Both the position numbers and the translations under genes were made by a program. This document shows positions 6,367 through 32,170 of a stretch of 64,000 nt of DNA, one piece after another. Position 1 is the first letter of the stretch. Each line of letters begins with the position of its first letter. The notes under the pieces were generated by a model. That model ran no database searches, was not told where the DNA came from, and saw only the letters and a list, made by a program, of their open reading frames with translations. The DNA comes from Anaerovorax sp. IOR16 (GTDB taxonomy: Bacteria > Bacillota > Clostridia > Peptostreptococcales > Anaerovoracaceae): assembly GCF_017168145.1 (NCBI RefSeq), contig NZ_JADQTL010000008.1:248001-312000 (forward strand). The letters are read 5' to 3'.

Positions 6367-6412
6367 AAAAAAGGCCGACTGCTTTACTGCATTTGCAGTG
6401 AAACAATCGGCC
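6367..6412 (-). terminator. Rho-independent terminator after the antirepressor gene
   Basis: On the minus strand GGCCGATTG pairs with CAGTCGGCC around an inner ACTGCA/TGCAGT stem, followed by a run of T. It lies between the antirepressor stop and the methylase start. Confidence 0.8.
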
Positions 6413-6427
6413 TTTACTCTGCGGTGT

Positions 6428-7165
6428 TCATATAATCTCACACTCGATAAGAAGTTCCATAAAATACTGTCTGCCTTTTGGCGTGATAAGGGTTTGTGTG
6501 CCACTGTGTCCGTTTCTGCAAAACTCTTTGATTTCAAAAAGTCCGCTATGAACAAATGACTGCATTGGGTGAATGACTTGCTTTGTGTCACGAAACACAA
6601 ACTTTTTATCAAGCAGAAATTGAGTAAATCTCATTGGTTTAATACCGAGTTCCTTTGCGGTAGTGCGGAAATTAACAAGCAAGTTGTTATCTACCAAGGT
6701 GTCAAAGTAATCTGCTTTGGGTTCTAACGTGTCAATTTCATCTTTCAGTCTTTCATTTTCTTCCGCTACCTTTAACATCTGTCTTAAAAACACCGACAAG
6801 TTTTCTGGATTATGGAAAATATCATCAAGCTTTGCTTTGGTAATATATCCACCATAGGCTCTAATAGAGGGGAGGACTTCAGAAGTTACCCAACGCTTAA
6901 ACTTCTTAGCGGTAGGTAGTTTACTGGAGAGAATAAGGGAATAAAGACCACTTTCATTAATAAGAGTTCCTTTTGTTCCGTTGACGGTGAACGTTTCGTT
7001 CACCGTCCTATCATCCTCGTCAACATGATCTCGGATTGCCTTTTGGGGATTGCTATATTTTAAAATTTGTGCTACATCTTTTCCCACAAACCAAGGTTCA
7101 CCATCAATGAGCAAGGTTCTTATCTGCCCGAATTCCTCGTATTCAAAAATCTTTAGTTCATGCAT
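6428..7165 (-). CDS. Phage-type antirepressor, BRO-N plus KilAC domains
   Basis: 245 residues. Residues 5-110 form a BRO-N domain (P-W-F-V-G-K-D-V-A-Q-I-L, S-G-L-Y-S-L-I-L-S-S-K and F-K-R-W-V-T-S-E-V-L-P). After a coiled segment comes a KilAC/ANT-type DNA-binding domain from about 145 (T-T-A-K-E-L-G-I, F-T-Q-F-L-L). Proteins of this kind counter repressors in phages and ICEs. GGAAAG precedes ATG 7165. Hairpin terminators flank it on both sides, so it is probably its own transcript. Confidence 0.9.
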   Translation of the reverse strand: MHELKIFEYEEFGQIRTLLIDGEPWFVGKDVAQILKYSNPQKAIRDHVDEDDRTVNETFTVNGTKGTLINESGLYSLILSSKLPTAKKFKRWVTSEVLPSIRAYGGYITKAKLDDIFHNPENLSVFLRQMLKVAEENERLKDEIDTLEPKADYFDTLVDNNLLVNFRTTAKELGIKPMRFTQFLLDKKFVFRDTKQVIHPMQSFVHSGLFEIKEFCRNGHSGTQTLITPKGRQYFMELLIECEII

Positions 7166-27875: not shown

Positions 27876-29153
27876 CTACATATTCAGTTCTTCAATCGCA
27901 TAGGTCAGCATATTGATAGCTGCTGGGATGGCCTCCTCATCAATATCAAACTCCGGGTTATGAACTGGTTGCGTAGTATCAGTTCCAATACCTGCATAAG
28001 TGGCTATTCCTCCATTTTCCTGAACTTTGTTCATCATGACTGCTGCATCGTCGGTTCCGCCTATGCTGCCCTCAAAATAAATCTTCTCAAACCAAGGTAC
28101 CTTGCCTGCAGCTCGCTGGATGACTTCCATCATGGTATCATCACTCTGCGAGGCTGGTATTTCACCTAAGTCATTAACGGAATATTCCAGATCATATGAC
28201 CTTGAAGCGCCATCCAAAACATCGAAAACTCTCTTGCGAGCATATTCCGATATTTCCTTATTCTGTCCTCTGTACTCTACGCTCATAAACGCGTTAGGTG
28301 CAATCGTGTTGACTACAACACCTGCATTGAGCACACCCACATTGACTCTGCAGAGTCCCGCTTCGTGTGGAGCGATGGTATGCATGTTGAGTGCAGCTGT
28401 GCAGGCAGCAAGCAATGCATTTTTACCTTCCTGTGATGCACCGCATGGATGAGCAGCTCTGCCATTGAATGTCACATCCAGCTGGCAGTCACTAACGAAG
28501 TCTTTGCATCCACAACAAATTGTATTTGACGGTAGCGGGTTGCCACCACCGGTTAAAGCCACATGTACGGAAATAAAGTTTATCACGTCATCCAGATGAC
28601 CTTTGTCTACTATAGACTGAGCGCCGTAGTACCTTTCCTCTGCCGGTTGAAAAATAATTCGTATCTTTCCCTTTAATGTATCCTTGCGCTCTATTAATGC
28701 CTGTGCCAAACCAAGCCCCATAGCAGTATGCGCGTCGTGCCCGCAGGCATGAACAGATCCTTCATTACAGGATATATAACCTTCGTCAAAAGGTCTGTAA
28801 CCTTCTTTCTTTGGCTCCTGATACGGCAGGCAGTCAATATCAAAACGAAGAGCGGTTATCGGTCCTTCTCTGCCTGTGTCTAGCTCTGCGATTACACCTG
28901 AATAACCCTCTGTCCTCTCAACATATTCCGGCTTGGCACCTTGAACAATGGCACGTTCCTTCTCCACCTTCTTTTCTTCATCACTGAGCATTTCAAAGGA
29001 AAGCGTATTCACATCGATTACATCGGTTCCCATAAGACAAGTATATCCCATTTCCTCAAGAATCTCTGCAACCCTGGCGCTGGTTCTGATTTCTTTCCAA
29101 CCAAGTTCAGGATAGCGATGAAATTCTCTTCTATACTCAATAAATTTGTTCAT
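27876..29153 (-). CDS. M20 amidohydrolase, AbgA-like
   Basis: 425 residues. Two-metal M20 peptidase family: H-R-Y-P-E-L-G-W near 11-18, A-C-G-H-D-A-H-T-A-M-G near 137-147, Q-P-A-E-E-R near 174, and the distal His in Q-P-V-H-N-P. Length and layout resemble AbgA, which with AbgB splits p-aminobenzoyl-glutamate. No second subunit is present here. ATG 29153 follows GAAAGGAAAA; it overlaps the end of the MocR gene by 17 bases. With the MFS gene upstream it probably hydrolyses an imported N-acyl amino acid or peptide. Confidence 0.85.
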   Translation of the reverse strand: MNKFIEYRREFHRYPELGWKEIRTSARVAEILEEMGYTCLMGTDVIDVNTLSFEMLSDEEKKVEKERAIVQGAKPEYVERTEGYSGVIAELDTGREGPITALRFDIDCLPYQEPKKEGYRPFDEGYISCNEGSVHACGHDAHTAMGLGLAQALIERKDTLKGKIRIIFQPAEERYYGAQSIVDKGHLDDVINFISVHVALTGGGNPLPSNTICCGCKDFVSDCQLDVTFNGRAAHPCGASQEGKNALLAACTAALNMHTIAPHEAGLCRVNVGVLNAGVVVNTIAPNAFMSVEYRGQNKEISEYARKRVFDVLDGASRSYDLEYSVNDLGEIPASQSDDTMMEVIQRAAGKVPWFEKIYFEGSIGGTDDAAVMMNKVQENGGIATYAGIGTDTTQPVHNPEFDIDEEAIPAAINMLTYAIEELNM

Positions 29154-30642
29154 TTTCTTTTTCCTTTCTGTTTTTTGCATTTTTCTGCTGTCTGCATTCA
29201 TCCAAAGCCTCTCCCAGAAGGATCACGCTTCGACAGATTTCATCATTTGTGACATTTGAAAAGCACATTCTAATATGCCCTTTTTTTCTATTAGAATTTT
29301 CGTAAAAAACCCATCCAGGCACTACTAACACGCCTTTTTCTTCGGCTAGCTTGCACAACTCACGTTCATTTATATCGTCAGGCAGTGTGCACCAAAGCAA
29401 CAGGCCTCCAGAAGGTTTTTGATAAGTAATGCCCTTATCTGCAATTTTATCCAATTCACTACAGAGCAGGTTTAGTCTGGCGGAGTATTCGCTGCGCACT
29501 ACTTTGACATGACGGTCATACTCACCAGAGTCAATATATTCATTTAGAAAATACTGGCCGATTCCGCTTACGATGGTCTCGTCCACGCTGAGGGCATACC
29601 CCATCATGTCTATGAAGTCTGATGGTCCTACTGCGTAGCCAATTTTCATCATATACGGAAAAATCAAGGTATAAGAATACACATATATTACTAATTTATT
29701 AGCATCCAGTGCATAGAGGCTTGGTAATATTTTTTCTGTGTAAGAAAACTCCTGCTGATAATCCTCCTCGATTATAGGTATGTTATAAGTATTTGCCAAC
29801 TGCAGCAAAGTCTGCCGTTTCTTTAGAGACATCGTAATCCCCGTAGGATTGTGGAAGTTAGGCTGGGTATAGATGAACTTTGGCTTGTATTTCCTGATTG
29901 CATCCTCCAACATATCCATCCGCATGCCGTCCTCTTCCATGGGTACAGTGGCAATATTAATGCCGCGATTATAGAAAATACTGAAGTTATCCGGAACGAT
30001 AGGTTCCTCCGCTACAATCCAGTCTCCTTCGCGTAGATATAGGGAGATCAAATAACTGATGGTTTGATTGCTCTCTGCCATAATCTGTACATTTTTCGGC
30101 ATAACATAGATGTTCTGGCGAGTCAGCAGACGGCAGATATTTTCTTTAAGGCGCTCGGTTTCCCTGCCAAACTCAGTCATGTGGTCTTTCTCGCTGTTAT
30201 TAAAGATTCTCTCTACTACATGTTCCATTTTCAAAACTGGGCTCAGCTTTCTATCCATGATAATACCACCAAAAGAAATCGCGTTCTTTGACTCCGATTT
30301 CCAGTAAATATCATTAAATCGTTTCTCTGCCCGTCGAAATTCATAGCGGAAGGCTTTTTCCAAAGGAAAGAATCTTTTACCAAAATCGGTAATTTCCTTT
30401 GGTGCACCTACAAAATATCCCTTTGGCTTCTGCCTGGATGCCGTCACCAGTTCCTCTGCTATCAAAACATTGTATGCTTTGACCACAGTGTTTCGGTGGA
30501 CGTTCAACGCTTCTGCCAAACGACGCTCCGCAGGTAACTTGAGCCCTGGCGTCAACTCCTGAGACAGAATCTTATCTTTGATTTTAATGGCGATTTGCTG
30601 GTATACAGGTACATAGCTGTTTCGATCTATAGTCAACTCCAT
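29137..30642 (-). CDS. MocR-type GntR regulator with a degenerate aminotransferase domain
   Basis: 501 residues. Residues 1-75 are a GntR winged helix (Y-V-P-V-Y-Q-Q-I-A-I-K-I-K-D-K-I, L-N-V-H-R-N-T-V-V-K-A-Y). From about 120 on it is a fold-type-I aminotransferase with F-H-N-P-T-G-I and E-E-D-Y. The usual S-F-S-K-T-L lysine that binds PLP is missing: an ungapped match through V-I-Y ... I-G-Y puts Leu 326 there. It therefore probably does not form the normal PLP Schiff base and may sense another ligand. Likely regulator of the MFS and amidohydrolase genes beside it. Confidence 0.9.
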   Translation of the reverse strand: MELTIDRNSYVPVYQQIAIKIKDKILSQELTPGLKLPAERRLAEALNVHRNTVVKAYNVLIAEELVTASRQKPKGYFVGAPKEITDFGKRFFPLEKAFRYEFRRAEKRFNDIYWKSESKNAISFGGIIMDRKLSPVLKMEHVVERIFNNSEKDHMTEFGRETERLKENICRLLTRQNIYVMPKNVQIMAESNQTISYLISLYLREGDWIVAEEPIVPDNFSIFYNRGINIATVPMEEDGMRMDMLEDAIRKYKPKFIYTQPNFHNPTGITMSLKKRQTLLQLANTYNIPIIEEDYQQEFSYTEKILPSLYALDANKLVIYVYSYTLIFPYMMKIGYAVGPSDFIDMMGYALSVDETIVSGIGQYFLNEYIDSGEYDRHVKVVRSEYSARLNLLCSELDKIADKGITYQKPSGGLLLWCTLPDDINERELCKLAEEKGVLVVPGWVFYENSNRKKGHIRMCFSNVTNDEICRSVILLGEALDECRQQKNAKNRKEKENEQIY

Positions 30643-30742: not shown

Positions 30743-32047
30743 TTATACTTCAGAATAGGCCTCATTAGAATAGGTCTCATTCTCCACGACTTTTTCTTTA
30801 CTATTTTTTACTTTTTCCACATATTTATCCCATATAGTCAACATAACGATACCAATGACCATGATAATGGTGATGGCGATAAACATATAACGGTAACCTC
30901 CAGCTCCGAACGTATCCAGGAGTTTACCTGAACAGAATGGAACGATTACCTCTGGAAGGTAGCCGAGGGTACATACTAGACCGATAGCGGTTCCTGAAAC
31001 TCTAATCGGAATACCGCCCTCTTCCATCATGGAGAATACTAGACTGTAGGCACCGTACATGCCTAAATAAATTAATATACACAATACGATAAATATTGCA
31101 GAACTCATGTTGCCCATGATAACCATCAACAATGTGCAGATTGCCATCAGTGAGAATGTCACATACATGACCTTGGACCTGCCAATCTTATCAGCAAAAA
31201 TTGCTCCGGTGAAAGCAGCTACAGGTCTCACATACTGAGCTGCAATGGTAACGACTGCTCCTGCAGTAGCCGCCATACCAAATCGAGAGGTAGCATACGG
31301 TGTGAAATAGTAGAACGCAATATTCATCACATAGGTGCAGCATAGGATTATCGAGAGTATCCATAGAGCCGGCATCTTGATTACTTCAACGATCTGAGCT
31401 ACGGAAAACTTTTCCTGTTTCTCAACTTTTTCAACTTCAACGGAAGGTTTGTTATCCTTCAATAATATGAAAACTAGAATGCCAAGCAAAACCGCAATAA
31501 TAGAGTAATATGTGATTACACCGTTGAGTCCTGCTGCCTCACTTGATACCTTGCTGAAATAACCGAAGATAGCGACAATGCAAACCCCATCTATGGCGTA
31601 TACTATGCCTCTGCCACCGTCCATGAAACCATATGCCTTGCTCTGTTCATTTTCATTGGCGATTTCACGTAGACTCTTCAAAAGAGACGGCCAAAATGCA
31701 AACAGAGATGTAAATCCCCACATGGCATAAATGGCAAGCAGCATTACATAATTTGGATGCATTAGATGAAGAAATCCGCCCACTCCAGTTAGTATTAAAG
31801 AAGTCGACATCAGTTTTCTGGGAGATACCATGTCTGCAACGACACCTCCAAATAAATAAGATATCATACCGAAAATACCGAACATGGATCCGAAGGTTCC
31901 CATCTGGGTATTAGTCAGATGGTAGGTGGTAAGATAAGCGTCGTAATAATACGATCTGAAATAAGGAAGTCCATAAATCATTGCTCCTGCGATGGTGATG
32001 ACTACCAGCGAAAACAGGTTCTTTCTAAGTTTTGAAGTAGATTCCAT
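30743..32047 (-). CDS. MFS transporter
   Basis: 434 residues with 12 membrane helices. Major-facilitator signature G-G-V-V-A-D-M-V-S-P-R-K between helices 2 and 3 and F-A-D-K-I-G-R-S in the second half. It resembles organic-anion or sugar-phosphate permeases (NarK/UhpC-like group); the substrate is unknown. ATG 32047 follows AGAGGAG; an in-frame extension upstream has no such site. First gene of the probable MFS-MocR-amidohydrolase operon, so the cargo may be the amidohydrolase substrate. Confidence 0.88.
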   Translation of the reverse strand: MESTSKLRKNLFSLVVITIAGAMIYGLPYFRSYYYDAYLTTYHLTNTQMGTFGSMFGIFGMISYLFGGVVADMVSPRKLMSTSLILTGVGGFLHLMHPNYVMLLAIYAMWGFTSLFAFWPSLLKSLREIANENEQSKAYGFMDGGRGIVYAIDGVCIVAIFGYFSKVSSEAAGLNGVITYYSIIAVLLGILVFILLKDNKPSVEVEKVEKQEKFSVAQIVEVIKMPALWILSIILCCTYVMNIAFYYFTPYATSRFGMAATAGAVVTIAAQYVRPVAAFTGAIFADKIGRSKVMYVTFSLMAICTLLMVIMGNMSSAIFIVLCILIYLGMYGAYSLVFSMMEEGGIPIRVSGTAIGLVCTLGYLPEVIVPFCSGKLLDTFGAGGYRYMFIAITIIMVIGIVMLTIWDKYVEKVKNSKEKVVENETYSNEAYSEV

Positions 32048-32136
32048 TCTTTTTCTCCTCTCGCTTGTTGAATATTCTAATAATTTTTGTTCATTATATT
32101 TCAAGTCAGGGTACCAATAAAGTACCAAAAAAAAAT

Positions 32137-32170
32137 AAAAAAGGGTTTGGCGTAGTCCAAAACCTTTTTT
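32137..32170 (-). terminator. Terminator of the DUF3885 gene
   Basis: AAAAAAGGGTTTGG and CCAAAACCTTTTTT pair (one mismatch) around CGTAGT. Confidence 0.8.

Follow-up and report, generated by a model that had tools for sequence, protein, structure and literature searches.

How does a regulator of the MocR type sense its ligand once the lysine that holds pyridoxal 5'-phosphate (PLP) is gone? The MocR protein GabR reportedly forms an external aldimine with γ-aminobutyric acid (Wu 2017). The question is raised by a gene, here called mocR, in a 64,000-nucleotide stretch of Anaerovorax sp. IOR16 (contig NZ_JADQTL010000008.1, positions 248,001 to 312,000; hereafter the window). We found that the encoded protein belongs to a branch of lysine-less relatives in which nearly all PLP-contacting residues are changed, while the presumed substrate-carboxylate arginine is kept. 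The protein is probably a MocR derivative that does without PLP, binding a carboxylate ligand directly and controlling the operon in which its gene lies, composed of a major facilitator superfamily (MFS) transporter gene, mocR and an M20 amidohydrolase gene. The gene and its parts are as follows:

29137..30642, minus strand: gene of the lysine-less MocR-type regulator (mocR), 501 amino acids (open reading frame (ORF) list; Pfam GntR and Aminotran_1_2)
30427..30603, minus strand: GntR winged helix-turn-helix (wHTH), residues 14-72 (PF00392, E 3.1e-15)
29236..30156, minus strand: aminotransferase-like (fold type I) domain, residues 163-469 (PF00155, E 1.3e-23)
29665..29667, minus strand: codon of Leu326, at the position of the Schiff-base lysine (phmmer, MAFFT, hhalign)

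Two features of the MocR subfamily are present, the N-terminal GntR wHTH (PF00392) and the C-terminal aminotransferase class I domain (PF00155; hhalign against lysine-bearing MocRs, Probab 100), in agreement with a first-pass annotation that had read this frame as a MocR-type regulator. Two others are absent: residue 326 is leucine in place of the lysine that forms the internal aldimine with PLP, and Glu293 replaces the aspartate at the pyridine nitrogen. The same lysine and aspartate are reported as conserved across all MocR clusters (PMC6677901; this and the other PMC articles are cited from excerpts), and the window protein has neither. In each of the three phmmer alignments displayed against solved aminotransferases (1x0m, 3aov, 1wst), Leu326 pairs with the Schiff-base lysine and no gap lies close by, the leucine of S-Y-T-L facing the lysine of T-F-S-K. 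Leu326 takes the same place in a MAFFT alignment of homologues and in an hhalign profile comparison with lysine-bearing MocRs (Probab 100, E 5e-111). Since the three methods concur, we rejected an alignment artefact, and the earlier placement of Leu326 at the PLP-lysine position stands. The accompanying claim that the pocket around it is kept stands only in part: the asparagine of N-P-T-G (Asn265) is intact, but in E-D-Y the pyridine-nitrogen place is taken by Glu293, the remaining D and Y being the next two residues. The pocket is therefore less intact than that annotation held.

Is the loss peculiar to this gene? We sampled 296 genomes of the window's bacterial family, 92 of which had a match at E <= 1e-60. 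After duplicates and proteins shorter than 380 amino acids were dropped, 171 matches gave 128 distinct homologues, and the lysine is absent in 85 of these 128 as read; counts from the genome searches cover the proteins read rather than every match row. Setting aside one GabR-like protein described below (L004) and adding four from an order-level search (proteins shorter than 330 amino acids dropped; duplicate rows L247, L251 and L254 not recounted) yields a lysine-less set of 88, which falls into subclades A (23 members, window-like), B (55), C (6) and D (4). The members come from three families of the order: A to C from the window's family, and one member of B (L016) and those of D from two others. 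Four named close relatives (Emergencia timonensis, an uncultured Emergencia, an uncultured Firmicutes bacterium and a Clostridiales Family XIII bacterium) are 67-90% identical to the window protein, and the window's own genome carries a clade B paralogue that is 36% identical (contig C3, 55183-56700; L002/L056, L056:7184-8701). Searches of the phylum and class (E <= 1e-60) returned only lysine-bearing proteins outside the order wherever the site was read. With 88 lysine-less relatives read, we rejected the view that the window gene is a lone oddity.

Because the absence of lysine from all 88 follows from how the set was defined, the test of common origin is whether trees built without the pocket columns place lysine-bearing proteins inside it. 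In a maximum-likelihood tree of 51 rows with these columns removed, no lysine-bearing row fell among the lysine-less ones, which corresponds to one change; 28 lysine-less rows sampling all four subclades lay on one side of a branch with a support of 100/100. The lysine-less relatives also grouped in an 81-row tree without pocket columns, again with no lysine-bearing row inside and with L004 outside the branch. Both trees were built on thinned sets and are unrooted, so a single loss in the common ancestor is the simplest reading and not proof. Compared with two relatives over partial sequences of 387 and 327 codons, the window gene has ratios of nonsynonymous to synonymous substitution rates (dN/dS) of 0.11 and 0.064; the ratio of the clade B paralogue is 0.039. 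These low values indicate purifying selection, and the lysine-less genes therefore look like working proteins. Separately, in one clade A copy (L064:7553-8719 and upstream) an in-frame stop separates the HTH part from the sensor part; the latter alone was used for the counts.

What else has changed in the pocket? In aspartate aminotransferase (AAT), a glycine belongs to the phosphate cup, Arg266 binds the phosphate and Arg386 the carboxylate. We take the place of Lys333 in the window protein to be that of AAT Arg266, and Arg458 presumably corresponds to AAT Arg386 and GabR Arg430. The positions concerned are:

30073..30075, minus strand: codon of Glu190, replacing the phosphate-cup glycine (87 of the 88 lysine-less proteins have Glu, all 91 lysine-bearing homologues Gly)
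29995..29997, minus strand: codon of Val216, replacing the ring-stacking Tyr/Phe (GabR Tyr205; alignment, role from PMC6677901)
29764..29766, minus strand: codon of Glu293, replacing the pyridine-nitrogen Asp (GabR Asp279; alignment, role from PMC6677901)
29644..29646, minus strand: codon of Lys333, at the place of the phosphate-binding Arg (alignment)
29269..29271, minus strand: codon of Arg458, the retained candidate substrate-carboxylate Arg (alignment, presumed equivalence)

The GabR roles of Tyr205, Asp279, Lys312 and Arg430 are those given in PMC6677901. Pocket counts compare the 88 lysine-less relatives with 91 lysine-bearing homologues, which were picked by similarity to the lysine-less proteins and not at random; for the lysine itself the counts (0/88 vs 91/91) restate the definition of the sets. 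A single lysine-less protein has the phosphate-cup glycine. The stacking tyrosine or phenylalanine is present in none of the 88 and in all 91 lysine-bearing proteins. The pyridine aspartate is found in 15/88 (glutamate in 67/88) vs 88/91, the phosphate arginine in 17/88 vs 91/91, and the N-P-T-G asparagine in 46/88 (aspartate in 36/88) vs 89/91. The carboxylate arginine is present in 87/88, the remaining row being truncated, vs 87/91.

The lysine itself is replaced by leucine in 75 of the 88 proteins, by phenylalanine in five, alanine in four, and methionine and glycine in two each; in clade A the replacement is hydrophobic in 23/23 (21 leucines, two methionines). The alignment of the lysine-less set contains no lysine column common to it (the best, column 389, reaches 81%), and a substitute lysine shared by the branch was rejected on this ground. 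Thirty-one columns are at least 97% conserved over the set and include two residues of the former active site, Arg458 and Glu190. Other pocket residues vary by subclade in step with the adjacent pathway. In clade B the slot is strongly acidic, with Asp265-Glu293-Asp294 in 24 of 55 members and Asn-Glu-Asp-Glu at 265-293-294-295 in 11; aspartate occupies the place of the N-P-T-G asparagine in 36 of the 55. Such a slot would suit a guanidinium group.

The genes that surround these regulators give an indication of what they might sense. In the window, the neighbours of mocR are:

30743..32047, minus strand: MFS transporter gene, upstream of mocR in the operon; ATG start at 32047, preceded by GAGGAG
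27876..29153, minus strand: AbgA-like M20 amidohydrolase gene, likely ATG at 29153

The MFS start was placed at 32047 because the listed TTG start at 32128 falls inside the predicted operator described below. The three genes lie on one strand, and the 3' end of mocR overlaps the start of the M20 gene by 17 nt. The best solved relative of the M20 protein is 3io1, an aminobenzoyl-glutamate utilization protein (E 4e-97), and its score of 261.3 bits against TIGR01891 exceeds the curated cut-off of 153.75. These results, together with Pfam and family profile matches, confirm the annotated location of the regulator between an MFS gene and an AbgA-like amidohydrolase gene. The first-pass annotation had also proposed checking whether relatives that have this gene cluster share the loss; clade A, with its 23 members and its MFS or YfcC-like and M20 neighbours, gives a positive answer. 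A transporter (MFS or YfcC-like) lies at most two genes away in 21/23 clade A loci, and an M20 gene does so in 17/23, with three more masked by a longer antisense ORF. One genome carries two tandem MFS-mocR-M20 cassettes (L060:7465-13311).

Clade B regulators are followed by genes for ornithine carbamoyltransferase, arginine deiminase and carbamate kinase (arcBAC). The neighbour table covers 54 of the 55 loci (L115 is missing), and four of the 54 have no downstream ORF. At least one arc gene lies downstream in 45 of the 50 loci with any downstream ORF, and all three in 36; in the other five of these 50, no arc gene is in view. The arc families, checked on one example each, all scored above their family cut-offs. 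The lysine-less regulator lies directly before arcB-arcA-arcC in the window's genome (C3:55183-56700) and in most clade B loci, which makes it a candidate for control of the arginine deiminase operon. Two further genes recur beside clade B regulators: a DUF1836 cluster gene (PF08876 in the L079 copy) directly upstream in L056, L079, L085, L100 and L114, and a sigma-54-type activator gene on the opposite strand, next after the regulator, in L096, L084, L086 and L087 (PF00158 in the L096 copy, L096:4349-5830).

In clade C an amidohydrolase gene adjoins the regulator in 6/6 loci, and an MFS gene is in view in 5/6; this amidohydrolase resembles Xaa-Pro dipeptidase and scores below the cut-off of that family. 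Downstream of clade D regulators come genes for an LD-carboxypeptidase and for an Opp peptide transporter in three of four loci (the three viewed), with Pfam support from S66, SBP_bac_5 and BPD_transp_1 in the L256 copies. To judge from these gene families, the neighbourhoods share the theme of taking up and degrading amino acids and peptides.

Direct repeats upstream of these operons are the predicted binding sites of the regulators. In the window they were found ahead of the MFS gene:

32118..32162, minus strand: predicted operator with repeats TTTTGGACTACG (32162-32151) and TTTTGGTACTTTA (32130-32118), 32 bp apart (pattern search)
32093..32098, minus strand: TATAAT, possible -10 element of the MFS-mocR-M20 operon (sequence)

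The repeats of clades A and D read TTGGACTA / TTGGYACTTT and are spaced by 23-24 bp or by about one helical turn more, 32-33 bp. Those of clade B read CTGGYACA / CTGGTACTTT, often with a TATAGT-like sequence 23-28 bp further on. MocR operators are often direct repeats whose spacing amounts to whole helical turns, one or more (PMC5320631), and the predicted spacings of 23-24 or 32-33 bp agree with this. On either strand, the strict pattern was found at 15/23 loci of clade A, 33/42 of clade B (always with a 24-bp spacing), 1/6 of clade C and 4/4 of clade D; two more clade C loci have near-matches 24 bp apart. It was found in none of 24 regions upstream of lysine-bearing MocRs, and shuffled upstream sequences gave on average at most 0.01 loci with the pattern. 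Each pattern matches just once in the window's genome, A at the window operator (contig C8, 280120-280160) and B before arcB, and neither reversed pattern matches there. The rule was written after the sites had been seen; what gives it weight are the shuffles, the 0/24 control and the single match per pattern in this genome.

Among the eight clade A loci missed by the strict pattern, the window's own and L036 had been cut, similar boxes precede a downstream MFS gene in L064 and L066, and no operator-like repeat was seen in L061, L074, L075 and L076. A search of 14 genomes gave the A pattern in eight (11 sites) and the B pattern in seven (7 sites). The genome of Emergencia timonensis (G281) has four A-pattern sites, three of them beside clade A or C regulators. 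The fourth lies before an opp operon ending in an amidohydrolase gene (L252 ~6398-6439 / L290), which suggests control in trans.

A separate lysine loss was observed in the same family. A GabR-like MocR has serine at the Schiff-base place (S-F-S-S-T-L) in 15 of 15 family members read, including that of the window's genome (C10:633797-635251; L004, L274, L289:5795-7252; the others in L275-L288). Matches at E <= 1e-80 occur in 116 of 197 family genomes, most of them not read at the site. This protein keeps the stacking tyrosine and the pyridine aspartate, and its gene is divergent from that of an ECF transporter S component (PF07155) in the three loci viewed (L289, L276, L279). Because of this transporter, the protein may sense free PLP or another vitamin non-covalently.

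How, then, would the lysine-less branch work? The suggestion of ligand sensing without Schiff-base chemistry, made in the first-pass annotation, gains support from the existence of the branch, the lost pocket residues, the kept arginine, purifying selection and the conserved predicted operators. In the mechanism we infer for the window protein, the intact wHTH would bind the direct repeat ahead of the MFS-mocR-M20 operon, as the conserved sites suggest. The aminotransferase fold would be kept as dimer and sensor, with the lysine and most PLP contacts replaced. Since the old active site keeps its carboxylate-gripping arginine and has gained a near-invariant glutamate in the phosphate cup, the effector is most likely a carboxylate-bearing substrate or product of the adjacent enzymes: an N-acyl amino acid, a dipeptide or an aminobenzoyl-glutamate-like compound in the window, and arginine or a relative in clade B. 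It would sit directly where PLP and substrate used to be, its binding would reshape the dimer, and the ligand-bound regulator would switch on import (MFS) and hydrolysis (M20) of the effector. Activation is proposed because the likely promoter follows closely on the second repeat. More tentatively, the combined PLP/substrate pocket may have become a direct amino-acid receptor in which the carboxylate arginine holds the carboxylate and the acidic old PLP slot (Glu190, Glu/Asp293 and, in the clade B members that have it, aspartate at the N-P-T-G asparagine) holds the side chain, the clade B ligand being arginine. If so, the arginine deiminase operon of clade B would have a kind of arginine sensor that our literature search did not find described.

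Several observations weigh against a PLP-free direct sensor. Sequence does not decide between activation and repression. The strict operator pattern misses 8/23 loci of clade A and 5/6 of clade C; 6 of the 14 genomes searched have no A-pattern match and 7 of 14 no B-pattern match, and the reversed A pattern matched once, in one of the 14 (the reversed B pattern in none). The carboxylate arginine is kept equally in the lysine-bearing homologues and could be structural. An AlphaFold2 model built from the window protein and four related sequences had a mean pLDDT of 59.9, a pTM of 0.36 and a pocket loop below 50, and was not used. The window protein still has Asn265 and Ser323, which makes weak non-covalent binding of PLP conceivable, and the pyridine aspartate and the phosphate arginine survive in 15/88 and 17/88 proteins. 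These residues would favour a regulator that still binds PLP, pyridoxamine 5'-phosphate or a PLP-ligand adduct non-covalently, as effector or co-effector, a mode made conceivable by the separate GabR-like protein with its serine and its kept glycine, tyrosine and aspartate. We regard it as unlikely, as the phosphate-cup glutamate in 87/88 should repel the phosphate and the loss of the stacking aromatic residue in 88/88 should remove the packing of the ring.

Lost cofactor contacts taken alone would fit equally a C-terminal domain that serves as a ligand-free dimerisation module, with the regulator controlled by its own level alone; the conservation of Arg458 and Glu190 among the 31 near-invariant columns, and pocket residues that track the adjacent pathway by subclade, make this improbable. 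In most of clade A a lysine, Lys333, occupies the phosphate-arginine place, a further point against a PLP-free pocket, and might form the Schiff base instead of the missing one. Lysine is found there in 19/23 members of A and 4/4 of D, but not in the other four of A, the 55 of B or the 6 of C; position 333 is that of the phosphate arginine, seven residues beyond Leu326, and no lysine column is conserved set-wide, so that a Schiff base on another lysine is very improbable. A decaying pseudogene, which would account for the lost lysine and for the in-frame stop of L064, is contradicted by the low dN/dS values of the window gene and the clade B paralogue, by the intact ORF, the uniformly hydrophobic replacement in clade A and the conserved operator, and this reading was rejected.

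The MocR regulators characterised so far bind PLP, according to PMC5320631. Our literature search (titles and abstract starts, with few subscription papers covered, hence a weak negative) found neither a lysine-less MocR clade nor a MocR protein that regulates an arginine deiminase operon. A branch that does without PLP in nature would illustrate how a sensor can pass from dependence on a cofactor to direct ligand binding while its fold, operator type and job are kept. The label 'PLP-dependent' is probably wrong for proteins of this branch, which offers testable regulators for the breakdown of arginine, peptides and N-acyl amino acids.

Among known systems, the best family score of the window protein is to PdxR (NF052282), with which it shares the wHTH and the fold type I domain; its 299.9 bits lie below the curated cut-off of 320. 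PdxR is a MocR-type regulator of PLP biosynthesis that responds to PLP (PMC5320631, PMC4944035), whereas in the window protein the lysine, pyridine aspartate, stacking tyrosine and phosphate cup are replaced, and its neighbours are MFS and M20 genes, not pdx genes. The Bacillus subtilis regulator GabR (NF052285; 4n0b, 4mgr) is similar in domain architecture, in the carboxylate arginine and in its direct-repeat operators (the latter from PMC5320631); the window protein scores 185.3 bits against a cut-off of 600, and GabR carries its Schiff base on Lys312 (PMC6677901). The TauR operator CTGGACYTAA, also a direct repeat (PMC5320631), is close to TTGGACTA and CTGGYACA, but regulator and pathway (taurine) differ. 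The downstream enzyme of the window operon belongs with the AbgA-like M20 amidohydrolases (3io1). A parallel case of a MocR without the PLP lysine is a made mutation, Lys302His of EnuR, which abolishes PLP binding and locks the protein as a repressor (PMC8739950). As the mutant loses both PLP and inducibility, the lysine-less branch must work otherwise: there the loss destroys induction, whereas in the window's branch it is natural, branch-wide and accompanied by further changes of the pocket.

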